Program-made: the position numbers and the translations under genes
From: Lachnospiraceae bacterium
Lineage (GTDB): Bacteria; Bacillota; Clostridia; Lachnospirales; Lachnospiraceae
Length of the DNA stretch: 64,000 nt
Assembly (NCBI GenBank): GCA_017470985.1
Contig: JAFUXA010000004.1
Coordinates: forward strand, 20,577 to 84,576
Reading direction: 5' to 3'
In this document: piece by piece, positions 1-11,495 of the stretch
Position numbering within the stretch: the stretch's first letter is position 1
Layout of the letters: every line of letters starts with the position of its first letter
The notes under the pieces: model-generated
The model's input: the letters and a program-made list of their open reading frames with translations, nothing else
What the model was told of the DNA's origin: nothing
The model's database searches: none

Positions 1-91
1 TCGGGTTTTTAATGACTCCCCCCGACCATCCAGAGTTTACAAGTAAGTCTATTAACGCTTGTTCAAACTCGGATTCCTTGTTAAAAACCAT
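1..91 (-). CDS. hsdR: Type I restriction enzyme HsdR, N-terminal fragment (runs off left edge)
   Basis: The minus strand reads from an ATG at 91 off the left edge as MVFNKESEFEQALIDLLVNS and on through GWSGG. The pattern E-x-E-F-E-x-A-L-I-x-L-L near the start, followed by a Gly-Trp, is how Type I R subunits often begin. HsdR would be the ATP-dependent translocase/endonuclease of the complex. It starts 26 nt after the hsdS stop, with a GGAGAGG stretch upstream, so it is probably the last gene of the XRE-hsdM-hsdS-hsdR operon. Only about 30 residues are visible; the call rests on these and on the context. Confidence 0.75.
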   Translation of the reverse strand, partial: MVFNKESEFEQALIDLLVNSGWSGGVIKNP

Positions 92-116
92 CTTTCTCGC
101 TTCCTCTCCTATATTT

Positions 117-1337
117 TTATACAAACATCTTTTCCAGCATAGATTTCTTAATATTTTTCAGCTTTTCCAGCTTACGCTGTTGAAGGGTGATAAGGTTATC
201 TATTCTCGATAAATAGGCAGCAATTTTATGCTGTTCAGCCAAGTATGGAGATACCATTATCTCAATCTCACTTAATGCTGGGTACTTCAAATTCCAGTTA
301 TCTGATGTAATCCCTTGGGAATTCATTTGGAAAACATGCGTCATATCACTGCGTTTAAAAAGGTACGAAATACACTTTGAATCAACTACATCAGTAATCG
401 GTGAAAGCACCGTATATGCAGGACTTACAATACCTTCATACGGTGAATACCCACTTGCTCCTTGCCACATTCTCATAGAGTTGTAGGCAATATCCCCTAC
501 GCATACTTTCTTATATTTCGACTTATCATCATTGGAATTATCATGTCTTCCAAGCTCAGAAAACTTCTTGATTCCCTCTCCGATTGTTACAGAGATTAAT
601 TCTCCCTCTGGCATACTATCCTTGCGTTCTGTGAAGCATTCTCCCAGCTTACGCTGTTCCCAATCGTCAGTAAATCCTTCAAATCTAATTTCAGGAACTT
701 TTGCCCCCTCACGAGGAAACATTTTTTCGAGCATGGATTTTTTTACATTTACCAACTTGTCATACTTACGCTGTTGAAGGGTGATAAGGTTGTTAAGTTC
801 ATCAATGAAACTACTTATTTTTCTCTGTTCAGCTATACTTGGAACAGGAACAACACACTCATAGTAATCTTTAAGATTGTAATTATTTCTTCCGTCACCA
901 GTCGAAATGTTCATAGCAAAGTTTTTATGCGTATCTGTATTTAGATAAGCGCACAAGTATTCCGATGTTATTTTTTCTTTATCTGGTCTTGTAACAATAG
1001 TAGCAAAACCTATTGAACCTGCCTCTTTTTCGGTAATTACAGCTGATGTTCCTATATCACCAGTATGTACTGTAATCACATCCCCTACTTTATGTTTTCT
1101 CGAAGCATTTTGTTTTGCAAATTCATCATCAAGATAAATGGGTTTGTCACCAAACTCAAATCGTCCATCTTTGATATCTGAATTTCGGATCAGTAACGCT
1201 CCATGGTCAGTGTAGTGAGATGTCATTGTTGTGACCAATCCTATATATATTTCACCCAGTTCCGTAACCTTACGCTGTTCCCAATCGTCAGTAAATCCTT
1301 GGAATCGAATATCAGGTTTTCTTTTATTATCACCCAT
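117..1337 (-). CDS. hsdS: Type I restriction-modification specificity subunit HsdS
   Basis: HsdS supplies DNA target recognition for the HsdM2S methyltransferase and the HsdR-containing nuclease. The protein has two target-recognition domains (TRDs). Each begins after a repeated block (I-R-F-x-G-F-T-D-D-W-E-Q-R-K, near residues 10-25 and 215-230) and ends in a helical spacer repeat (L-I-T-L-Q-Q-R-K ... S-M-L-E-K-M-F, centre and C-terminus). I chose ATG 1337 because GGAGGT lies 7 nt upstream; an upstream start at 1352 would bury that site. It starts 1 nt beyond the hsdM stop, so translation is probably coupled. The DNA for both repeats recurs, inverted, beside a spare cassette at 4.2-4.7 kb, so this is probably the expressed copy of a switchable gene. 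Confidence 0.95.
   Translation of the reverse strand: MGDNKRKPDIRFQGFTDDWEQRKVTELGEIYIGLVTTMTSHYTDHGALLIRNSDIKDGRFEFGDKPIYLDDEFAKQNASRKHKVGDVITVHTGDIGTSAVITEKEAGSIGFATIVTRPDKEKITSEYLCAYLNTDTHKNFAMNISTGDGRNNYNLKDYYECVVPVPSIAEQRKISSFIDELNNLITLQQRKYDKLVNVKKSMLEKMFPREGAKVPEIRFEGFTDDWEQRKLGECFTERKDSMPEGELISVTIGEGIKKFSELGRHDNSNDDKSKYKKVCVGDIAYNSMRMWQGASGYSPYEGIVSPAYTVLSPITDVVDSKCISYLFKRSDMTHVFQMNSQGITSDNWNLKYPALSEIEIMVSPYLAEQHKIAAYLSRIDNLITLQQRKLEKLKNIKKSMLEKMFV
171..197 (-). repeat. Recombination repeat B, copy at the 3' end of hsdS
   Basis: This 27-bp sequence encodes D-N-L-I-T-L-Q-Q-R-K at the distal border of TRD2. It recurs in direct orientation at 765-791 (distal border of TRD1) and inverted, with one mismatch, at 4687-4713 in the spare cassette. 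It is the outer repeat expected for inversion-based swapping of TRDs. Confidence 0.85.
640..663 (-). repeat. Recombination repeat A, proximal border of TRD2 in hsdS
   Basis: This 24-bp sequence encodes W-E-Q-R-K-L-G at the start of TRD2. It matches 4200-4223 in inverted orientation with a single mismatch. A shorter 16-bp identical core lies at 1269-1284 at the start of TRD1. Recombination between 640-663 and 4200-4223 would invert about 3.5 kb. Confidence 0.85.
765..791 (-). repeat. Recombination repeat B, central copy in hsdS
   Basis: This is the second copy of the 27-bp repeat at 171-197, marking the distal border of TRD1 in the central helical spacer. It is in the same orientation as the 3' copy and inverted relative to 4687-4713. 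Confidence 0.8.
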
Positions 1338-1338
1338 A

Positions 1339-3894
1339 TTAGACACCTCCAAGCATTTTCTTTAATTCTGCTATTCCTTGCATATCGAAATCATTACCAG
1401 ATAACATACTAAGCATTCTAGATAACTCATTTTCAGTACTACTTATCTGATCTTCTACCTGTTCAAGTGTATCCTCATATTTTGAACACAACTTTCCAAG
1501 CTCAGTAATGAGTTCACTAATAAAGCTATCTGGCAACTGCTGCAAACTTTCTACAAGAGGAACAATCCATTTATCGTGTAAAAGCTCCATTACTTGGTCA
1601 TCTTCTAAGTTCTCTATCAATTTCTTAGTTTCAAGATGTAGTTTCTCTCCATCGTCTTTTATTTGCTTTTTAAGTTTTTTCTCTTCATCATTATTTGATA
1701 AAACCTTTTTCAGAACTGCAAGAACCTCAGGCTCAACATCTTTGGCTTTTATTGCCTTTTTAACCTCTGCCCACACAAATGCCGTCTTGTCATCATTTAC
1801 AAAGTCTTTATCTTTTTCTTCTTCCGGAAGTTCATCTAATGCTTCATCGTAACTTGCTACGATTTCGGATAATCTTTCTTCCGCTTTCTTAAGGGCTTCT
1901 ACGGCTTGACTCATATACTTTGCCTGCGCGAGTTCAAATGGTATAACATGTCCAATCCATCCCTCCTGTACTTCTTGATCTTTACCATTCTTCTTTTTAA
2001 TTACCATATTAGGATCTACTTGTTTTGTAGCTTCAAATCCTTCACTTTGAATAATTTCAAGATCTACAGAAATCTTGTTCCAATCATTATCAAGAATTTG
2101 GTATGCTTCATATGCATCCACAAGAGGCATTCCCTTTAATCTGCCAAAAATATCCTCGCTTAATACAGCTTCCTCCTTGGATATGTTCACACCAGACATT
2201 GCCTGCATAAGCTCTTTCTTTAAATACTCGTCAAATCCATCAAAAGAGGCTATGTATCTGCTGATAAAAGCTCTTACATCTTCACTACTTTGTACGGCTT
2301 TTTTAATATCACTGGTCCTTAATTCGTAATATGAATCATTAACCTTTGCAAAGATTTCTCCTTTAAGAGCTGGAAAAGCTGCCCAGTAATCCGACAACTC
2401 GTCAACTTCCTTTGCCGGTATTCCGCCAAACATAGACGCATAAATATCCCAGCTTTCTGGCTTTTCCGATGAATCCACATATCGCGGAATATTTAAGTTG
2501 TAGTCGTTCTCTCTAATTTCATCACGGGAGACTACGCGAGAAAACTTATGTACATCCATTCTCTTTGTGACTACATCTGTGATTTTCTTTATGTCTGATG
2601 CTCTTAACTTATTATTCTTACCAACCTTCTCATAGCCTTTTGATGCATCAACAATGAGAATATCTGTATTATCGCGTTTCTGTTTTAAAACCATGATGAT
2701 GGTTGGAATACCTGTACCAAAGAAAATATTGGCAGGTAAACCTATTACCGCATCAATATGGTTATTCTCAATAAGATTTCTTCGGATTTCACCTTCCTCA
2801 CCGCCTCTGAACAGAACGCCATGAGGTAATACTATAGTCATGATTCCATCATTCTTGATATGGAACAAATCATGAAGAAGGAACGCATAATCCGCCTTAC
2901 CTTTTGGCGCCAAACCAAATCTTGCATATCTTGGATCTGCTTCTTTATCTGCCGGATTCCAGTTCTGTGAATACGGAGGATTTGATACGACTGCATCCAC
3001 ATACAATGGGTCATATGTACCAACTGGATCACTCTCATCAAAGTATGGCCAGTCTTCTTCAAGTGTATCTCCGTTTCTTGTGACAATATTATCCGGAAGG
3101 ATACCTCTCATAACGAGATTCATTCTCGTAAGGTTATATGTATTTTCTTTTAATTCCTGAGCATAGTATTTAATTCTGTCACTGTCGCCCATATGTTTTC
3201 CAACTGCTTTACCAATGTTAATAAGTAAAGAGCCCGAACCAGACGTAGGATCATAGATCTTTATTTCTGTTCTGTCCTTTAAATGGTCTGCGACAATTTC
3301 AGACATAAGGAGTGATACCTCATGCGGGGTGTAGAACTCTCCTGCTTTCTTTCCGGCATTTGCTGCAAAGTTTGAGATAAGATACTCATAAATAAAACCT
3401 AGGACATCATAGTCCTGCTTTCCATCCATAGGGATATCTTTTATTAAATGCAACAGATCACTTATAGCTTTTGTCTGTGAATTTGAACTGTCTCCTAGTT
3501 TTGACAAACCAGTCTGCAATGTATCAAAAACTCCATCGAAAACCTTTTTATGAGAGGTGTTTATCAATCTACTAAATGCTGAAAGCGCATCTCTTACATC
3601 TGCAACATTAAAGTCACTACCCTTTGCAAGCCAAGTAGAGAACAAATTATCATAGCTTATGAAATATCCAATATTCTTTTGTATATTCTCAACTATTTCT
3701 TTGTCATCTTCTGTGACAGTATCCATGTCGTCATTAGTATATCCAAGTTCGATGAGATACTTTACTTCTTTGTCTGAAAGGAACTTGTAAAAGATGAATC
3801 CAAGGATATAATCCTTATATTCATTCGCCTCAATTTTAGACCGCATTTTATTTGCAGACTCCCATATCTTCGCTGCCAATTGTTGTTTGTTCAT
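1339..3894 (-). CDS. hsdM: Type I restriction-modification methyltransferase subunit HsdM (long form)
   Basis: HsdM is the N6-adenine methyltransferase subunit. An N-terminal helical domain (about residues 1-155) precedes the methyltransferase core, with the SAM-binding motif D-P-T-S-G-S-G-S at 215-222 and the catalytic N-P-P-Y at 305-308. At 851 residues it is much longer than the usual ~500. The extra C-terminal ~350 residues are charged and helical, with Lys/Glu-rich probable coiled coil from about 680 onward. GGAGG sits 7 nt before ATG 3894. It starts 14 nt after the XRE gene and abuts hsdS. Function is confident; the role of the extension is unknown. Confidence 0.95.
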   Translation of the reverse strand: MNKQQLAAKIWESANKMRSKIEANEYKDYILGFIFYKFLSDKEVKYLIELGYTNDDMDTVTEDDKEIVENIQKNIGYFISYDNLFSTWLAKGSDFNVADVRDALSAFSRLINTSHKKVFDGVFDTLQTGLSKLGDSSNSQTKAISDLLHLIKDIPMDGKQDYDVLGFIYEYLISNFAANAGKKAGEFYTPHEVSLLMSEIVADHLKDRTEIKIYDPTSGSGSLLINIGKAVGKHMGDSDRIKYYAQELKENTYNLTRMNLVMRGILPDNIVTRNGDTLEEDWPYFDESDPVGTYDPLYVDAVVSNPPYSQNWNPADKEADPRYARFGLAPKGKADYAFLLHDLFHIKNDGIMTIVLPHGVLFRGGEEGEIRRNLIENNHIDAVIGLPANIFFGTGIPTIIMVLKQKRDNTDILIVDASKGYEKVGKNNKLRASDIKKITDVVTKRMDVHKFSRVVSRDEIRENDYNLNIPRYVDSSEKPESWDIYASMFGGIPAKEVDELSDYWAAFPALKGEIFAKVNDSYYELRTSDIKKAVQSSEDVRAFISRYIASFDGFDEYLKKELMQAMSGVNISKEEAVLSEDIFGRLKGMPLVDAYEAYQILDNDWNKISVDLEIIQSEGFEATKQVDPNMVIKKKNGKDQEVQEGWIGHVIPFELAQAKYMSQAVEALKKAEERLSEIVASYDEALDELPEEEKDKDFVNDDKTAFVWAEVKKAIKAKDVEPEVLAVLKKVLSNNDEEKKLKKQIKDDGEKLHLETKKLIENLEDDQVMELLHDKWIVPLVESLQQLPDSFISELITELGKLCSKYEDTLEQVEDQISSTENELSRMLSMLSGNDFDMQGIAELKKMLGGV

Positions 3895-3908
3895 TTCTTT
3901 GCCTCCGA

Positions 3909-4136
3909 TTATTTATTCTTTGTTTGCTCAAGCCATGCCTTTTCTAATTCACCAAAAGAAAACCCATTTTTTTCACAAAAATCCTTCATCTGTTTCATCG
4001 CCTTCATATTGGGCACAGTCTTCCCATTTTCCCATCGATTAATGGTTGAAAATGCCACACCGAACTCAGAGGCAAACTCTTCCTGCGTCATGAACGATTT
4101 TTGACGTATTTTCTTGATTTCATTAGATAAATCCAT
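3909..4136 (-). CDS. XRE-family helix-turn-helix regulator, likely controller of the hsd operon
   Basis: This small DNA-binding protein of about 75 residues is essentially one HTH_3 domain. The helix-turn-helix is visible as M-T-Q-E-E-F-A-S-E-F-G-V-A-F-S-T-I-N-R-W-E-N-G (residues about 17-39). ATG 4136 is chosen because GGAGG lies 9 nt upstream; longer readings to 4160 include the ribosome site in the coding region. It is the first gene of the hsd operon, 14 nt before hsdM. It may set the timing of modification and restriction as controller proteins do, but no operator was identified; that role is inferred. Confidence 0.85.
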   Translation of the reverse strand: MDLSNEIKKIRQKSFMTQEEFASEFGVAFSTINRWENGKTVPNMKAMKQMKDFCEKNGFSFGELEKAWLEQTKNK

Positions 4137-4166
4137 CTTGCATTTCCTCCGCATAAACATAGCTCA

Positions 4167-4195
4167 ATTATAGCATTTGTAGAGCAGGAACACAA
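4167..4195 (-). promoter_or_regulatory. Sigma-A promoter of the XRE-hsdM-hsdS(-hsdR) operon
   Basis: On the minus strand TTGTGT, a 17-nt spacer and a perfect TATAAT precede the XRE start at 4136. The -35 box ends 4 nt from inverted repeat A (4200-4223), so an inversion between A copies would carry the promoter with the block it drives. Confidence 0.75.
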
Positions 4196-4199
4196 TCGT

Positions 4200-4223
4200 T
4201 TGGGAACAGCGTAAGTTGGGAGA
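4200..4223 (+). repeat. Recombination repeat A, cassette copy (inverted)
   Basis: This 24-bp inverted match to 640-663 (one mismatch) reads W-E-Q-R-K-L-G in frame with the spare cassette on the plus strand. It lies immediately upstream of the hsd promoter. Confidence 0.85.
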
Positions 4224-4719
4224 TATGGTTTCGTTTTCTAAAGGTTCAGGTTATTCCAAGGGTGATTTGAAAGAAGATGGAACTCCTATAATATTGTATG
4301 GAAGACTCTATACAAAATACGAAACTATCATATCTGAAGTAGATACTTTTGTTGACGAGAAAAAAGGCTCGGTTTTTAGTAAAGGCGGTGAAGTGATTGT
4401 ACCGGCATCTGGGGAAACTGCGGAAGACATTTCGATAGCTTCAGTAGTTGAAAAATCTGGGGTTTTGCTCGGTGGAGACCTTAATATAATAACTCCCCCT
4501 GATGAGATGGATTCAGCATTTTTGGCAATCAGTATTTCTAACGGAAAACCGCACAACGATATGGCAAAAATGGCTCAAGGCAAATCGGTTGTCCACCTTC
4601 ATAATACCGACTTGGAAAAGATAGATTTACCATATCCAAGCCACGACGAACAGAGAAGAATAAGTGGGTTCTTTTCTGATCTCGACAACCTTATCACCCT
4701 TCAACAGTGTAAGTCATAA
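4216..4719 (+). CDS. Silent inverted HsdS target-recognition cassette (partial HsdS)
   Basis: The plus-strand frame from 4202 reads W-E-Q-R-K-L-G-D-M then one complete TRD, and ends in D-N-L-I-T-L-Q-Q-C-K-S. Homology to hsdS begins before the first ATG (4216), there is no ribosome site, and the last repeat carries an Arg-to-Cys change followed by a stop. The segment therefore looks like a storage cassette, not an expressed gene. Its repeats A and B are in the same frame as those around TRD2, so exchange would give a full-length HsdS with new specificity. The TRD sequence differs from both TRDs in hsdS. Confidence 0.85.
   Translation: MGDMVSFSKGSGYSKGDLKEDGTPIILYGRLYTKYETIISEVDTFVDEKKGSVFSKGGEVIVPASGETAEDISIASVVEKSGVLLGGDLNIITPPDEMDSAFLAISISNGKPHNDMAKMAQGKSVVHLHNTDLEKIDLPYPSHDEQRRISGFFSDLDNLITLQQCKS
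4687..4713 (+). repeat. Recombination repeat B, cassette copy (inverted)
   Basis: This 27-bp inverted match to 171-197 and 765-791 has one C-to-T difference (CGT to TGT). It closes the spare TRD cassette. Confidence 0.85.
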
Positions 4720-5210: not shown

Positions 5211-6221
5211 TTACATTGTACCATACATGTCGTGATTTACCTCAGCGGTATAGTAATGATTTATCGTGTTTGGTGCGTTATAGAGTGCTGTTGTCAGGTA
5301 TGCTTTGATATTTGACACCTTGGTTGTGTTATTCTTCATGCAGCCGATAACATATTCCAAATGCGTTGAATTGAGCTTCAGAAACTTGCTCTTCACCAAG
5401 TTATACGGATAGTCTTCCCCTGCTATACGAATTGTCTTTCTTGGAACACAGACCACATCGCAGATCAGCTGATAAAGCTCGTCATACATTTCTCTATCAG
5501 ACCATTTCTTGTTGCTCATCATGATGTCATAATCAATGTTTTCACGAATAAGCTCCATATATGCGGTAGTTTCATCCATCTGATCCATCCTCGTAACGCG
5601 GATAGGCGTATCCATACGCTCGCCGGATTGAATGATATGATCAGTATCACTAAATTCAATATTGTTAAAATCATTATTATTCGGGTCTGATTTCTGTACT
5701 ACCCCTGGTATAGAATCCTGACAGGTACCGGTATTAACATCTGACTGGTCTTTCATATTTACCGGTCTAATATCTGTACCGGTAGAATATTTAGACTGGT
5801 GTTCTGCCACCGGTTCATTTTCCTTACCTGTACAATTTTCTGACCGGTCTAATGACTCTTCTTCCCCTCCGGATACGAAGTTCTTAACATAGATGATATT
5901 TGCAAGCCCATTTCTCTGCTCAATATCCACTAAGCCAATAGCCTGCAATTCCTTCAAAAGACCTACTGCTGTCATCTTGCTACAATTAAGATCTTCCATG
6001 ATGCTTTTTATCGAATACTTGATATAAACCCTGTTCTGATCATCAAACCATCCGCTTCTGACGGAAAGTGACATACGATCAAGCATCAGTCCATACAAAA
6101 GCTTGGAATTATTCGATATATCCTTAAACCTATTGTCTGTTATCAAAGCCTTCGGCAGGCGGTAGAACGTAAACTGCTCTGCCTCCTGCCCATAATAAAA
6201 CTCCAGCTTCAGCCTCTCCAT
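5211..6221 (-). CDS. repA: Plasmid replication initiator RepA_N-type with C-terminal DUF6017-like domain
   Basis: The N-terminus (F-Y-R-L-P-K-A-L near residue 15, L-L-Y-G-L-M-L-D-R around 41-49, then a winged-helix pattern) matches RepA_N initiators of Firmicutes plasmids and integrative elements. The C-terminal ~110 residues (Y-x-x-L-Y-Q-L-I-C-D-V-V ... Y-L-T-T-A-L-Y-N) resemble DUF6017. The middle (about 125-215) is polar and probably a linker. ATG 6221 overlaps the parB stop as TAATG, implying coupling; an upstream ATG at 6248 is less likely. It suggests the element can replicate when excised. Confidence 0.85.
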   Translation of the reverse strand: MERLKLEFYYGQEAEQFTFYRLPKALITDNRFKDISNNSKLLYGLMLDRMSLSVRSGWFDDQNRVYIKYSIKSIMEDLNCSKMTAVGLLKELQAIGLVDIEQRNGLANIIYVKNFVSGGEEESLDRSENCTGKENEPVAEHQSKYSTGTDIRPVNMKDQSDVNTGTCQDSIPGVVQKSDPNNNDFNNIEFSDTDHIIQSGERMDTPIRVTRMDQMDETTAYMELIRENIDYDIMMSNKKWSDREMYDELYQLICDVVCVPRKTIRIAGEDYPYNLVKSKFLKLNSTHLEYVIGCMKNNTTKVSNIKAYLTTALYNAPNTINHYYTAEVNHDMYGTM

Positions 6222-7126
6222 TAACGCGGTTCCCCTTTCTCCTTCCATTCATCAAGGAGCTTTACGATAAGTTCCTCGATATCCTCATTGCTCATATCCG
6301 GGGTAAAATAGTTGTCCAGCTTCTTCTGGTTAAATACTACCTTACGTGGTTTTGGTTTCTTCTCCGACAGATAATCCTTTAAGAAATCTGCGTTCAGATA
6401 ACCCTTGCGGGACGATTCCTTTATCCTTGCACTCTGCTCCTGGCTAAGTGACACTCCCATCTCCGAAATAACTTCATATACGATTTTCTGTTGCTCCTGC
6501 GGAATAAAAGAAAGATCCACCCCCTGACGAAGGCCCAGCTTCTTTTCATCCACCATAGCAAGCAATTTCTCATCCAAGCTGGCGATGCAGATTAAACGCT
6601 GAATGGTCTTCATGCTCTCCCCCGCCTGCTCACTCATGGTTTTAAGGGAAATACCCTGAGCCTTGCCCTGATGCTTCATGGCTTCATATTTCATCTGATA
6701 AGCCTTTGCTCGCTCACTGACAAGAATATCCTCACGCTGGATATTGGCATCCACCATGATTACTACAGCTTCATCATTATCACAGTCACGAACAATAACC
6801 GGCATGGTATCTTTACCTGCCAGTTCGGATGCATGTTTTCTTCTGTGACCGGATATAAGTTCATATCCACCTTCTGCTCTCGGTCTTGCGATAGCCGGAA
6901 CCAACACGCCATATTCCTTGACGCTTTCCACCATTTCTTCCATATTTTTATCGTCTACGACACGAAAAGGATGGTTCTCAAAGGTATGCAGTTCCGATAA
7001 AGGGATCTCTACTATCTGTCCCTCAACAAGTTTTGCTTCTGCTGTAGCATTACCATCATTCTCCGCCGAAAACATATCATCATAGCTGGAAAGCTTGATT
7101 CTATTTGATAATCCCTTACTGCTCAT
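6221..7126 (-). CDS. parB: ParB/Spo0J-family partition protein
   Basis: This 301-residue ParB binds centromere-like sites and works with ParA to segregate DNA. The N-terminal ParB/sulfiredoxin fold shows I-S-G-H-R-R near residue 112, the usual box 2 (GxRR-type) CTP-binding motif, and H-P-F-R near 52. A helix-turn-helix central domain follows (about 155-230). It overlaps parA by 11 nt and repA by 1 nt, forming a tight parA-parB-repA cassette. No parS site was identified. Confidence 0.93.
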   Translation of the reverse strand: MSSKGLSNRIKLSSYDDMFSAENDGNATAEAKLVEGQIVEIPLSELHTFENHPFRVVDDKNMEEMVESVKEYGVLVPAIARPRAEGGYELISGHRRKHASELAGKDTMPVIVRDCDNDEAVVIMVDANIQREDILVSERAKAYQMKYEAMKHQGKAQGISLKTMSEQAGESMKTIQRLICIASLDEKLLAMVDEKKLGLRQGVDLSFIPQEQQKIVYEVISEMGVSLSQEQSARIKESSRKGYLNADFLKDYLSEKKPKPRKVVFNQKKLDNYFTPDMSNEDIEELIVKLLDEWKEKGEPR

Positions 7127-7901
7127 TGGCTAAAACCTCCTCTACAATCTTTTCATACGCCGCTGCTACTTTACCCTTGCCATCATATTTATAGATGCTG
7201 ACTCCTTCAGCAGATGCCTCCGCAGCTCTAACGGAAAGCGGAATCACATCATCGAAAATATGGATGCTGCTTCCATAGTGCTCATACAGCACTTCCGTGA
7301 TTTCCTTAGCATAAATGGTTCTGTAATCCACCATCGTAATCAGAATTCCCATAATATGAAGCTTCGGGTTCATCTTGCGTTTCACACGGCTGATGGTCTT
7401 TAAAAGCTGTTCCAAACCCTTTATAGGCAGATATGCAGCCTGTACCGGAATGATTACTTCATCCGCCGCTACAAGGGCATTTAAGGTAAGCTGTCCAAGA
7501 TTCGGAGAACAGTCCACAAGAATATAGTCATAATCGTCTCTTACAGATTCGATATACTCCCGAAGCGTTGTCTCCGAACTCATGATTCCAACAAGGGATG
7601 TTTCCACACCGGACAATTCGATATTTGCCGGCATAAGGTCGATACCTTCCTCATGATGCAGGATACCGGCTTTCAGATCATAATCGTCCTCGTTTAACAC
7701 CCATTCCATTACATTGGCAAGTGTGATCTCCAGCTTATCCGGCTGCGGATATCCTAATGCTTCCGTGAGAGATCCCTGGGGATCATTGTCGATTACAAGG
7801 ACTCTCTTTCCCTTATTTGCCAGACCGATGCCAAGATTTACCACAGACGTACTCTTGGCAACTCCCCCTTTTTGATTTGCACAGATAATTACTTTACACA
7901 T
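7116..7901 (-). CDS. parA: ParA-family partition ATPase
   Basis: This 261-residue Soj/ParA ATPase has a deviant Walker A K-G-G-V-A-K-S-T near residues 11-18 with the signature lysine, and a Walker A' D-N-D-P-Q-G near 39. The Walker B-like D-Y-I-L-V-D-C-S-P is near 123-131. There is no N-terminal DNA-binding extension, so it is the short chromosomal/small-plasmid type. It overlaps the upstream small gene by 8 nt and parB by 11 nt. The Ala in place of the usual Gly in the Walker A is worth noting but probably compatible with function. Confidence 0.94.
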   Translation of the reverse strand: MCKVIICANQKGGVAKSTSVVNLGIGLANKGKRVLVIDNDPQGSLTEALGYPQPDKLEITLANVMEWVLNEDDYDLKAGILHHEEGIDLMPANIELSGVETSLVGIMSSETTLREYIESVRDDYDYILVDCSPNLGQLTLNALVAADEVIIPVQAAYLPIKGLEQLLKTISRVKRKMNPKLHIMGILITMVDYRTIYAKEITEVLYEHYGSSIHIFDDVIPLSVRAAEASAEGVSIYKYDGKGKVAAAYEKIVEEVLANEQ

Positions 7902-8289
7902 CTCGATATGCTCTCCTTTCCAAAAACTTATCTTTCCTTCTGATTTTATTTTTCTTATTCTTATCCTCGTTCTCCTTAAACGCTTCTAAGATTTCCAACA
8001 TAGTGCGAATCGGTGTAAAAAGCTCCTCATCTATCTCGGAAGCTGCTTCTAACCGCTCCAGTTCTTCGAGAATCCCGTACAGCTCCTTACGGAAATTAAC
8101 CAGCATCATAGGATTTCCCTTCGCCGTAACCTTGTTATGCAATACCGAATCAAGAACGTAGTCCTGCTTTGTCGCATACCCAAGCAGTTTCCATCGCTTA
8201 TCCAATTCCTTTCTCTCAGCAGGAGAACAACGGTAAGCAATAGTCTCACTTCGCAATCTTCCTTTTGGATCAAGATTCTTCGCTGACAT
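7894..8289 (-). CDS. Small ribbon-helix-helix/MobC-like plasmid protein
   Basis: This protein of about 131 residues begins M-S-A-K-N-L-D-P-K-G-R-L-R-S-E-T-I-A-Y-R-C-S-P-A-E-R, which resembles mobilisation accessory (MobC-like) and ribbon-helix-helix proteins (a strand with E-T-I-x-x-R, then helices). The tail is strongly basic. ATG 8289 is supported by AAGGAGGG 5 nt upstream. It overlaps the integrase end by 20 nt and parA by 8 nt. It may bind an origin of transfer or regulate the operon; the exact family is not certain. Confidence 0.7.
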   Translation of the reverse strand: MSAKNLDPKGRLRSETIAYRCSPAERKELDKRWKLLGYATKQDYVLDSVLHNKVTAKGNPMMLVNFRKELYGILEELERLEAASEIDEELFTPIRTMLEILEAFKENEDKNKKNKIRRKDKFLERRAYRDV

Positions 8290-9367
8290 CAAATCCCTCC
8301 TTCCATTCTTCATCAAGAGCCTCTGCCATATCATCCTGAATAGACGGCATCATATGTGCATAACGATAAGTAATATCCGAACTTTCATGGCCTACACGGT
8401 TACCGATAGCCACTGCCGAAAATCCCATATCTATAAGAAGCGATACATGGCTGTGTCTTAAATCATGAAGACGAATACGCTTTACCCCACTTGCCTTTAC
8501 ACCCCTATCCATCTCATGGTGCAAATAAGACTTTGAAATCACAAAGATCCTATCGCTCGGTTCAATGCCATAAATGCTATCAAGGAAATCTTTCATTTCT
8601 AATGCCACATTCTCCGGCATAGATATCATACGCACACTCTTTGGAGTTTTAGGTTTTGTAATAACATCCCTTCCACTTATCCTTTGATATGACTTTGTGA
8701 TAGATAGCTTATTCTTATCGAAATCAAAATCCGCAGGAGTTAAAGCCATCAGTTCACCAATTCGGATCCCACACCAATACAAAAGCTCAAATGCCATATA
8801 GGAATAGGTTTTATTCGCGACCTCGGGAATGAAGCGCATATACTCTTCCTTTGTCCAAAAAAGCATTTCATCTGCATGGTGTTGTCCAAGTGGACCAGCA
8901 ATTACAGCCGGATTCTTTGGCAGTTCGTAATACTTCACCGCATGATTGAATATGGCTGAAAGTTCCGCCTGCATCTTCCTAAGATAGGTTCCTTTGTATT
9001 TTTCACCATCCTGCGACTCACACTTACGCATCTCGTTTTGCCAAGCAATAACATCTCTCGGTGTAATCTCACGCATTACCAAATCTTTAAAATACGGTAG
9101 TATCTTTAACTCGATTACATATTCTTTGGACTTCCACGTATTCTCTCTAAGCTTTGGCTTTACATCATCGGTATAGCGTTTGTAAAAATCCCCAAAGGTC
9201 ATATCAAGGCTACTGGCCTTTTCCAATGAAAAATGTCGTTCCCAGTCCTGTGCTTCCTTTTTGGTTGAGAAGCCACGCTTTAATTTTCTCTGCTGCTTAC
9301 CTGTCCAGTCGGTGTAATACAACGACACATACCAAGTGCCTCTCTTCTTATCTTTATAAACTGCCAT
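8270..9367 (-). CDS. int: Tyrosine site-specific integrase of the mobile element
   Basis: The N-terminal arm-binding domain (G-T-W-Y-V-S-L-Y-Y-T-D-W-T-G-K, residues about 9-23) is of the type common in ICE and phage integrases. A SAM-like core-binding domain precedes the catalytic domain. Catalytic residues are visible: R in C-G-I-R-I-G-E-L (about 202), H-D-L-R-H-S-H (about 306-312), G-H and Tyr in I-T-Y-R-Y-A-H. ATG 9367 has AAGGAGG 6 nt upstream. It overlaps the excisionase gene by 14 nt and faces the guaA 3' end. It could also catalyse the hsdS inversion, but that is speculation. Confidence 0.95.
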   Translation of the reverse strand: MAVYKDKKRGTWYVSLYYTDWTGKQQRKLKRGFSTKKEAQDWERHFSLEKASSLDMTFGDFYKRYTDDVKPKLRENTWKSKEYVIELKILPYFKDLVMREITPRDVIAWQNEMRKCESQDGEKYKGTYLRKMQAELSAIFNHAVKYYELPKNPAVIAGPLGQHHADEMLFWTKEEYMRFIPEVANKTYSYMAFELLYWCGIRIGELMALTPADFDFDKNKLSITKSYQRISGRDVITKPKTPKSVRMISMPENVALEMKDFLDSIYGIEPSDRIFVISKSYLHHEMDRGVKASGVKRIRLHDLRHSHVSLLIDMGFSAVAIGNRVGHESSDITYRYAHMMPSIQDDMAEALDEEWKEGFDVSEES

Positions 9368-9569
9368 CTTCGTCCTCCTTTTCAAATGAATCAACTCCGT
9401 AGAATCTTTCTTCGAAATACTTTCTGCTTACTCTACCCGGGATTACCATGTAGCCTTTATCAGAAAGTTCCTTATTTAAGTCACGAACGATTGCATATGA
9501 CTTTGATTCGGAAACACTCAATACCTGACAGATCTCTTTTACCGATATAAACGTTCTGCATTCAAACAT
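9354..9569 (-). CDS. xis: Excisionase-like small helix-turn-helix protein
   Basis: This 71-residue protein has an early helix-turn-helix pattern (F-I-S-V-K-E-I-C-Q-V-L-S-V-S-E-S-K-S-Y at 7-25) and a following strand with V-S-R-K-Y-F-E. This is typical of Xis-type DNA-bending proteins encoded just before an integrase. GGAGGG lies 8 nt upstream, and the 3' end overlaps int by 14 nt. It probably directs excision. Confidence 0.8.
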   Translation of the reverse strand: MFECRTFISVKEICQVLSVSESKSYAIVRDLNKELSDKGYMVIPGRVSRKYFEERFYGVDSFEKEDEDGSL

Positions 9570-9865: not shown

Positions 9866-11410
9866 CTACTCGAGTTCCACGGTTCCAGGCGGTTTACTCG
9901 TCAAATCATAGAATACTCTATTTACGCCTTTTACTTCATTAATAATTCTGCTCATTACTCTCTGCAAAACTTCAAATGGTATTTCAGATGCCTCTGCTGT
10001 CATGAAATCCACTGTCTCTACAGCACGAAGTGCTACAGCATAATCATAAGTTCTCTCGTCACCCATTACACCCACAGATCTCATATTGGTAAGAGCTGCA
10101 AAATATTGATCCGGTAACTTATCCAATCCGGCATTTGCCAACTCTTCTCTATATATGAAATCAGCATCCTGTACAATCTGAACCTTCTCAGCTGTAACTT
10201 CGCCGATAATTCTAATTCCAAGTCCCGGTCCTGGGAATGGCTGTCTAAATACCAGATACTCTGGCAATCCCAGCTCCAATCCAGCTTTGCGCACCTCGTC
10301 CTTGAATAAATTACGCAATGGCTCAATAATCTCCTTGAAATCTACATAGTCAGGAAGGCCACCTACATTGTGATGAGATTTAATTACTACAGACTCTCCA
10401 CCCAATCCTGATTCAACAACATCAGGATAGATAGTTCCCTGCGCCAGGAAATCAACCTGACCAATCTTCTTCGCTTCTTCCTCAAACACGCGAATGAACT
10501 CTTCACCGATAATCTTGCGCTTAGCCTCAGGCTCTTCCACACCTGCAAGCTTAGCATAATATCTATCAGCAGCATTTACCCTTACAAAGTTAATATCGAA
10601 GCTGCCCTCTGAGCCAAATACACTCTCAACTTCGTCTCCCTCGTTTTTACGCAACAAGCCGTGATCTACAAATACGCAAGTAAGCTGCTTGCCAATAGCC
10701 TTGGCAAGAAGAGCTGCCAAAACAGATGAATCAACACCACCAGAAAGTGCCAGAAGCACCTTGCCATCGCCAACCTTCTGGCGAATCTCACTAATAGAAT
10801 TCTCCACAAATGAATCCATCTTCCATGTACCGGCGCATTCACATACACCACGCACGAAATTATGAATCATCTTGGTACCTTCTACAGTATGTAATACTTC
10901 AGGATGGAACTGAATAGCATACAACTTCTTCTCAGCACACTCCGCTGCCGCAACAGGACAATCTGCAGTATGAGCTACTATTCTAAATTCTGGTGCAACC
11001 TGTGAGATGTAATCAAAATGACTCATCCAACAAGTTGTTGTAGCTGATACATTTCCAAATAATGCAGAATCATTTTTTACAAAAACCTCTGTCTTACCAT
11101 ACTCTCTGACAGGAGCTTTCTCCACTTTGCCGCCAAGTACATGCATCATAAGCTGTGCACCATAGCATAATCCCAACACTGGAATTCCAAGCTCAAACAG
11201 CTCCTTGGTATATGTTGGAGAATCTGCCTCATAACAACTGTTTGGTCCACCTGTCAAAATGATTCCCTTAGGATTCATTGCTTTGATGGTTTCAATATCT
11301 GTCTTGTAAGAATATATCTCACAATACACATTGCATTCTCTCACTCGTCTTGCAACCAGCTGATTGTACTGACCACCAAAGTCAATTACGATTACTTTTT
11401 CCTGATCCAT
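9866..11410 (-). CDS. guaA: GMP synthase (glutamine-hydrolysing)
   Basis: GuaA converts XMP to GMP using glutamine and ATP. The class I glutamine amidotransferase domain has the nucleophile in G-L-C-Y-G-A-Q (about residue 78) and H-P-E near 170. The ATP pyrophosphatase P-loop S-G-G-V-D-S-S is near 224-230, and the dimerisation domain ends in [14 protein letters not shown] 11410 has GGAGG 5 nt upstream; longer readings add an unrelated 27 residues. The usual ending is close to P-A-T-I-E-W-E, so the tail here is slightly changed, as may happen when an element integrates at the 3' end. Confidence 0.97.
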
Positions 11411-11495
11411 TCCATCCTCCAGATTTCTAACAGATATCCACCCTGATTTAGAGGATGAATTCTGCAAAATATTTTTCATAAAAAACAACATCTAC

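Follow-up and report, generated by a model that had tools for sequence, protein, structure and literature searches.

How might a restriction-modification locus exchange its recognition domains and still keep its reading frames and the order of its genes? The locus considered here lies at the left edge of the window, the whole stretch of 64,000 nucleotides that was analysed (G000:C2:20577-84576), which belongs to a draft genome, G000, of 2,383,235 bases (2.38 Mb) in 35 contigs, 88.8% complete. G000 is probably a metagenome assembly, and its source bacterium probably came from gut or rumen. The system extends to the left beyond the window, where hsdR, a tyrosine recombinase gene and three further silent HsdS target domains (TRDs; C4, C5, and C6) are found, so that the part described in a first-pass annotation is its right-hand portion. 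There are six TRDs in all, two in the expressed hsdS gene and four silent, and they are very probably swapped by the adjacent tyrosine recombinase at two kinds of short site, A and B. Positions in the locus record L005 are converted to contig C2 by adding 5999. In window coordinates, the features are:

1..124, minus strand: 5' end of hsdR (whole gene G000:C2:17500-20700)
117..1337 (end about 1337), minus strand: hsdS, the expressed specificity gene (TRD1, central conserved region, TRD2, C-terminal helix)
171..662, minus strand: TRD2, A site to B site
171..194, minus strand: B site of TRD2, CTTATCACCCTTCAACAGCGTAAG
648..662, minus strand: A site of TRD2, TGGGAACAGCGTAAG
765..1283, minus strand: TRD1, A site to B site
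765..788, minus strand: B site of TRD1
1269..1283, minus strand: A site of TRD1
1339..3894, minus strand: hsdM, modification subunit
3909..4160, minus strand: small HTH regulator (HTH_3), first in the operon
4167..4195, minus strand: candidate promoter within the putative invertible block
4201..4713, plus strand: silent cassette C3, inverted relative to hsdS
4201..4215, plus strand: A site of C3
4690..4713, plus strand: B site of C3, one change, CAGTGTAAG

To the left of the window, in contig coordinates, there are:

G000:C2:14815-15346, plus strand: silent TRD C6
G000:C2:15358-16287, minus strand: tyrosine recombinase, 309 aa
G000:C2:16318-16843, minus strand: silent TRD C5
G000:C2:16884-17440, minus strand: silent TRD C4
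G000:C2:17445-17474: hairpin (z -4.7) between hsdR and C4/C5/recombinase

With hsdR, hsdM, and a two-TRD hsdS together, the locus is a Type I restriction-modification system. Pfam cut-offs are reached by HsdR, HsdM (PF02384, E 2.2e-102), HsdS (PF01420, two stretches), the HTH protein (PF01381), and the recombinase (PF00589), and the C3 cassette itself scores above the cut-off for PF01420. The NCBIfam cut-offs are passed by HsdR (TIGR00348) and HsdM (TIGR00497), while HsdS remains below. PADLOC names HsdM, HsdR, and HsdS as Type I subunits, with hsdS, directly 3' of hsdM, called Specificity_I; the hsdR start overlaps the hsdS end. The likelier start of the HTH gene, judged by eye, is an internal ATG at about 4136 that is preceded by GGAGGA. 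The candidate promoter, also found by eye, consists of TTGTGT, 17 nt, and an extended -10 (TGC-TATAAT). It is absent from the list of a consensus scan, its -35 agreeing with the consensus at 3/6 positions, and the standard scan gave no excess of promoters (30 matches against 33.9 in shuffles). Since it sits between the HTH gene and the A site of C3, this promoter would turn with the block.

What defines the unit that could be exchanged? Each TRD opens with A (TGGGAACAGCGTAAG) and closes with B (CTTATCACCCTTCAACAGCGTAAG or a near copy), and the two sites have a common 11-bp core, AACAGCGTAAG. The core-region pattern SAACAGYGTRAG has 11 matches in the 2,383,235 bases of the genome, all of them within 10.5 kb (G000:C2:14822-25289), six inside the window and five to its left; the same pattern read backwards has none in the whole genome. 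The clustering of the matches at this locus is not due to chance. A twelfth site, the B site of C4 to the left of the window, contains an additional base, and for this reason C4 may be mobile only together with C5. The sites of C3 and C6 are inverted relative to the others. As read from the DNA, all six TRDs have open frames, and the spare cassettes consist of the TRD without the N-terminal and C-terminal parts of HsdS.

The first-pass annotation had proposed that a minus-strand hsdS and a plus-strand cassette form a two-repeat inversion system, and each of its elements was recovered in the sequence at the place given. Its repeat A (640-663) differs from the reverse complement of 4200-4223 by one mismatch in 24, and its repeat B (171-197) from that of 4687-4713 by one in 27; the third copy of B (765-791) is identical to 171-197, and the 16-bp copy of A at 1269-1284 is real. 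The frames that it read through the junctions, WEQRK and LITLQQ, are correct.

Which products would recombination at these sites give? The real sequence was recombined in silico, every same-type pair among the 11 intact sites being joined singly and then in series of two inversions, with HsdS lengths given in residues starting at the DNKRK motif (the existing form has 404). In the proposed mechanism, the neighbouring tyrosine recombinase most likely joins A with A and B with B, and the DNA between inverted sites would turn. An inversion at A followed by one at B would trade an expressed TRD for one of the silent ones without loss of frame and would restore the gene order, giving a new bipartite recognition sequence for both methylation and restriction. 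The two-step series computed in this way yield C3-TRD2 (402), C6-TRD2 (403), TRD1-C3 (411), and TRD1-C6 (412), all four in frame and with hsdM and hsdR back in line. The swap of TRD2 and C3 with a restored operon direction, which the first-pass annotation had predicted, is thus reproduced as TRD1-C3; its scheme is supported, and extends to TRD1 and C6. Direct A and B pairs also exist in silico, so that excision is possible on paper. Recombination between direct pairs (C4 and C5 with hsdS) would delete cassettes or, by analogy with the pneumococcal tvr locus (PMC6265443), move them by excision and reintegration by way of a circle.

A different state is predicted after a single inversion between the A sites of TRD2 and C3. 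The computed HsdS is TRD1-C3 with 395 residues, ending LDNLITLQQCKS, and hsdM, the HTH gene, and hsdS are turned to the plus strand, with hsdR left behind. In this predicted intermediate, the cell would either modify without restricting or lose both activities, and which of the two applies depends on whether an HsdS lacking the C-terminal helix is active.

Is the recombinase a plausible catalyst? Residues R151, H250, R253, H276, and Y286, which we take to be the catalytic ones, are invariant across 14 aligned sequences including that of this locus, and the enzyme is presumably the one that acts at A and B. The gene itself is framed by inverted B sites (L005 9312-10342), and its direction relative to hsdR is the same in 58 and opposite in 16 of 74 loci; for both reasons the recombinase gene may turn too. 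Relatives from Listeria innocua and Enterococcus raffinosus are 65% and 65.7% identical to it, and an IMG/VR scan found 213 recombinase relatives (best 81%), of which 80 loci were kept. In Ligilactobacillus salivarius, the plasmids NZ_CP114511.1 (L241 6796-8910) and NZ_CP114516.1 (L242) differ by an exact inversion of 2115 bp that covers a GbpC/Spa surface-protein gene stretch between flanks of 100% identity, next to a gene for a recombinase that shares 55.6% identity with that of our locus. Within the wider recombinase family, some members may also shuffle surface proteins.

Have TRDs changed places between closely related loci? A genome scan with an alignment of the recombinase gave 500 relatives, of which 80 were kept, and OMTP01000233.1 (hRUG869), which ranks first, encodes a recombinase identical to that of G000. 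TRD exchange between siblings, one of the two observations on which the first-pass annotation had staked its proposal, was seen here: outside the TRDs hRUG869 and G000 are 98.7-99.7% identical (constant parts 98.9-99.7% on contig C51 and 98.7-99.5% on C109), while 4/4 comparable TRD slots differ, with breaks at the A and B sites. Both hsdS TRDs of hRUG869 are unlike any of the six in G000, and the outer slot holds another TRD. Seen from hsdR, C6 lies beyond the recombinase gene in G000; in hRUG869 it sits between these two genes and points the other way, an arrangement that is among the products of the in-silico recombination. Upstream of the A cores of both hsdS TRDs, 60/60 bases agree; downstream the figures drop to 24/60 and 17/60. 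On the upstream side of B, 40/60 and 39/60 bases match, and on the downstream side 60/60 (TRD1) and 53/54 comparable bases (TRD2). Since the TRD ends resemble each other, a break at B can be placed only to within about 30 bases. No sibling with an exchange of C3 itself was found, the hRUG869 locus contigs ending just inside hsdM.

hRUG869 is apparently a metagenome assembly, and its locus is carried by two contigs of only 4152 and 3352 bp. We considered it as proof of transfer between species, as its best DNA matches to the guaA region of G000 are only 65-69% identical, but rejected this use since the short contigs are possibly mis-binned; the claim is therefore limited to a near-identical locus with other TRDs. 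Foreign ends of about 50 bases each are carried by the hRUG869 loci L061 (1-55) and L141 (1-51), and both leave hsdR at one place, with 7 common bases (L005 12773-12779). An insertion in hsdR of hRUG869 with a 7-base target duplication is possible. The foreign ends may instead reflect a habit of the assembler; the other end of L061 also has 55 unmatched bases.

Two further pairs show exchanged cassettes. In the genomes G293 and G711, with flanks 97.3-97.6% identical, the spare of one corresponds to TRD2 of the other at 85% DNA identity. Two plasmid records of Enterococcus raffinosus differ in that two opposite hsdS-like copies have exchanged a piece the size of a TRD1; the records are unannotated, and these roles are inferred from the sites. 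A single-contig genome, G296, holds an identical TRD (499/499 bases) in hsdS and in a spare (L047 10418-10918 and 13380-13880), which indicates that cassettes can also be duplicated. A genome of the same genus, G139, gave no recombinase match at E 1e-60; it has a TRD fragment only, at a contig edge among other genes, with no arrangement to compare.

Could the repeats be mere protein motifs of HsdS, WEQRK and LITLQQRK, with TRDs replaced by homologous recombination or transfer and with no dedicated recombinase at work? Both are indeed HsdS motifs, and other species are known to exchange TRDs, whether inside one hsdS gene or from one hsdS gene to another (PMC3077401, PMC3983042), which favours this explanation. 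The choice of codons bears on it more closely. WEQRK is present in 68/101 recombinase-linked loci, and 142/153 of the motifs are encoded by the same 15 bases. The control is not clean: among 20 loci with an unlinked hsdS, 14 have no motif, and the other six carry 10 motifs, all with the same 15 bp. An expectation from local codon use was therefore added, and it gives only 4.6/149 motifs with those bases, which speaks against a mere protein motif, as synonymous codons are nearly fixed. Repeats of 15-27 bp are also short for RecA. Moreover, C6 occupies another slot and has been turned round in a locus that otherwise remains about 99% identical, and a recombinase gene lies inside the locus, although its presence in the relatives says little, since the relatives were found by their recombinase. 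We consider this explanation very unlikely.

Alternatively, the locus might be a degraded relic in which the spares are dead fragments and shuffling has stopped, or the exchanged TRDs might have been misjoined by the assembler at short repeats, in G000 or in hRUG869. The one-base insertion in the B site of C4 and the spares' lack of terminal HsdS parts would suit a relic. Against decay stand the 6/6 open TRDs, each with a relative of at least 83% aa identity elsewhere, the relatives of C3 and C4 that occupy a TRD1 or TRD2 position in other loci, and the near-identical locus, which differs at 4/4 slots and by about 1% in its constant parts; a relic is accordingly judged highly improbable. For misassembly speak the short, apparently metagenomic contigs of hRUG869 and the 35-contig draft state of G000. 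Repeats of 20-27 bp, however, are below usual assembly word sizes, and a like pattern is seen in other assemblies (G293/G711) and between complete E. raffinosus plasmid records, and in the single-contig genome G296 one 499-bp TRD occurs twice, in hsdS and among the spares. That the pattern arose in assembly is extremely unlikely. The reading that we prefer is thus site-specific exchange at A and B by the neighbouring recombinase; it would imply that shuffling is ongoing in the population and that silent cassettes become functional once moved, and in principle the six TRDs can pair in many combinations.

How does this locus compare with known systems? A close likeness is that of Listeria monocytogenes ST8/CC8 (LMR479A_0528-0532), for which PMC4783014 describes a tyrosine recombinase (integrase) between hsdS genes and two inverted-repeat kinds within hsdS, and explains the ST8 variants by inversion at agcttgggaacagcgt and ctatcgctcttcatcagcgtaagttagat. 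Of these repeats, the first includes TTGGGAACAGCGT from our A, and the second is similar to our B. A is very probably a true recombination site, since it has TTGGGAACAGCGT in common with a published inversion repeat. A text search of the literature for the A sequence, in a limited set of texts, returned PMC4783014 as the only restriction paper. In ST8, the recombinase is flanked by two opposite hsdS genes and four variants arise; the present locus stores single-TRD cassettes, has six TRDs and sites of both orientations, and places hsdM within an invertible block.

The SpnIV (tvr) locus of Streptococcus pneumoniae, according to PMC6265443, also has TRD-sized units, two repeat types with an ~11-bp common core, and a recombinase in the locus, with a hairpin attenuator before the recombinase gene. 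At the present locus, the strong hairpin lies between hsdR and C4/C5/recombinase; a hairpin search 3' of C3 gave an insignificant z of -1.45. The tvr repeats lie all in one orientation, the units move by excision and reintegration, and N- and C-terminal TRD kinds are kept separate. Here, in contrast, TRDs that resemble one another are found at the TRD1, the TRD2, and the spare positions, and the repeats are not all direct, since the sites of C3 and C6 are inverted. The SpnIII (ivr/cod, CreX/PsrA) system of S. pneumoniae resembles ours in inversions between expressed and silent hsdS genes at inverted repeats with a 10-bp consensus, and its 15-bp repeat depends on the tyrosine recombinase (PMC7096588, PMC6620402, and PMC4948785); as described there, hsdM and the promoter lie outside the inverted segment, some of the repeats are long (85 and about 300 bp), and TRDs are fewer. 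For Mycoplasma pulmonis hsd (HvsR), PMC4948785 reports that a tyrosine recombinase inverts hsdS and that restriction-modification activity is lost with some of the inversions.

Our locus belongs with the inverting Type I systems, as a variant that differs by single-TRD spares in mixed orientations, by six TRDs, and by having hsdM, a regulator, and a candidate promoter in the invertible block. In Mycoplasma pulmonis, hsdR and hsdM lie between two hsdS genes and turn with them. No described case of hsdM, regulator, and promoter together within an invertible block was found in the literature surveyed; Mycoplasma pulmonis may be one.

How far do TRDs travel? From 74 loci, 183 open TRDs were pooled and compared between different loci at a threshold of at least 80% protein identity. 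This gave 66 TRD pairs, 43 of them in different position classes, including 13 of TRD1 with TRD2; the 43 are an upper bound, as the spare/other class (97 TRDs) includes TRDs with unrecognised neighbours. In 26 of the 45 shared-TRD pairs for which HsdM identity is known, it is below 60%. Without the five loci that were fetched by DNA matches to this locus, 49 pairs are found among 169 TRDs from 70 loci. For every TRD of G000, some other locus holds a relative with an aa identity of 83% or more: TRD1 matches a TRD in the TRD2 position of L138 (84%), TRD2 a TRD1 in L126 (91%), C3 a TRD in the TRD1 position of G112 (94%), and C4 both a TRD1 in G711 (92%) and a TRD2 in G545 (91%), while the best match of C6 is the sibling itself and the next is at 92%. 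For the relatives of C3 and C4, the DNA homology spans A to B even though flanks of 60 bases were offered on either side. Judged by these identities, similar TRDs occur across species and distant restriction-modification systems.

Are turned operons found in other genomes? Among 98 mapped loci, 37 have at least three A sites and 29 have sites in both orientations; in 26, many of them short contigs, no A site was present within the sequence stretch examined. Both hsdM and hsdR are present in 45/98 loci and run in the same direction in 44 of these, which argues against the turned state being common or long-lived. Only four loci have an inverted A site on the upstream side of hsdM: L057 and three unturned ones, G000 included. 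In L057 (G203:C19, 1-5200), hsdM lies on the opposite strand to hsdR and faces away from it, with an inverted TRD cassette upstream of hsdM and a contig edge exactly at an A site. It is a candidate for a turned operon, weakened by a run of N that separates hsdM and hsdR together with a TnpB-like gene (by eye). In these surveys, the repeat contigs L062, L119, L122, and L134 were left out of the codon, mapping, and TRD-pair counts, and L037, L038, and L040 also out of the 98-locus mapping. The near-identical stretches L084/L085 and L089/L091 were left in; L100 and L315, the same contig, occur together only in the TRD-pair comparison and are absent from the 40 pairs listed.

A wider reading, which we put forward tentatively and hold to be rather less probable than its opposite, is that A/B-framed TRDs form an integron-like pool, moved by one recombinase family with nearly invariant sites between slots, species, and distant Type I systems, and that the block of promoter, regulator, hsdM, and hsdS start turns as a whole. 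If so, the turned block would give methylation of the new specificity, with restriction off until a second inversion recouples hsdR, a safe changeover. If the preferred reading of the locus is right, it also points to a common and nearly fixed site pair through which bacteria, many of them from gut or rumen samples, share TRDs. Two questions become testable in this way: how cells stay alive when their restriction specificity changes, and whether the specificities of defence systems are passed around in cassette form. The A and B sites also offer a simple sequence signature for finding such loci.

What surrounds the locus? A phage search for this locus gave 15 records covering at most 14% of the query, and a plasmid search with hsdM DNA gave 307 records, none with 80% query cover (the best among the matches listed is 70.0% identical over 77%). 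To the right, the window at 5211-9569 holds a RepA_N/DUF6017 replication protein and a phage-type integrase, found by domain search, together with ParB-like, ParA-like, and small excisionase-like proteins recognised by eye. This stretch adjoins guaA (9866-11491, by eye). From this gene content, the locus may be part of a mobile island; no direct repeat was found at the guaA 3' end as an integration mark (k-mers of at least 14 in C2:1-25500, and of 16 in the rest of the window). On the other side, next to C6, the minus-strand gene at L005 7684-8538 (G000:C2:13683-14537) encodes a protein with DUF4357 above the cut-off and GIY-YIG slightly below its own, and this protein matches the PADLOC candidate defence family PDC-S14 (E 5.8e-96).
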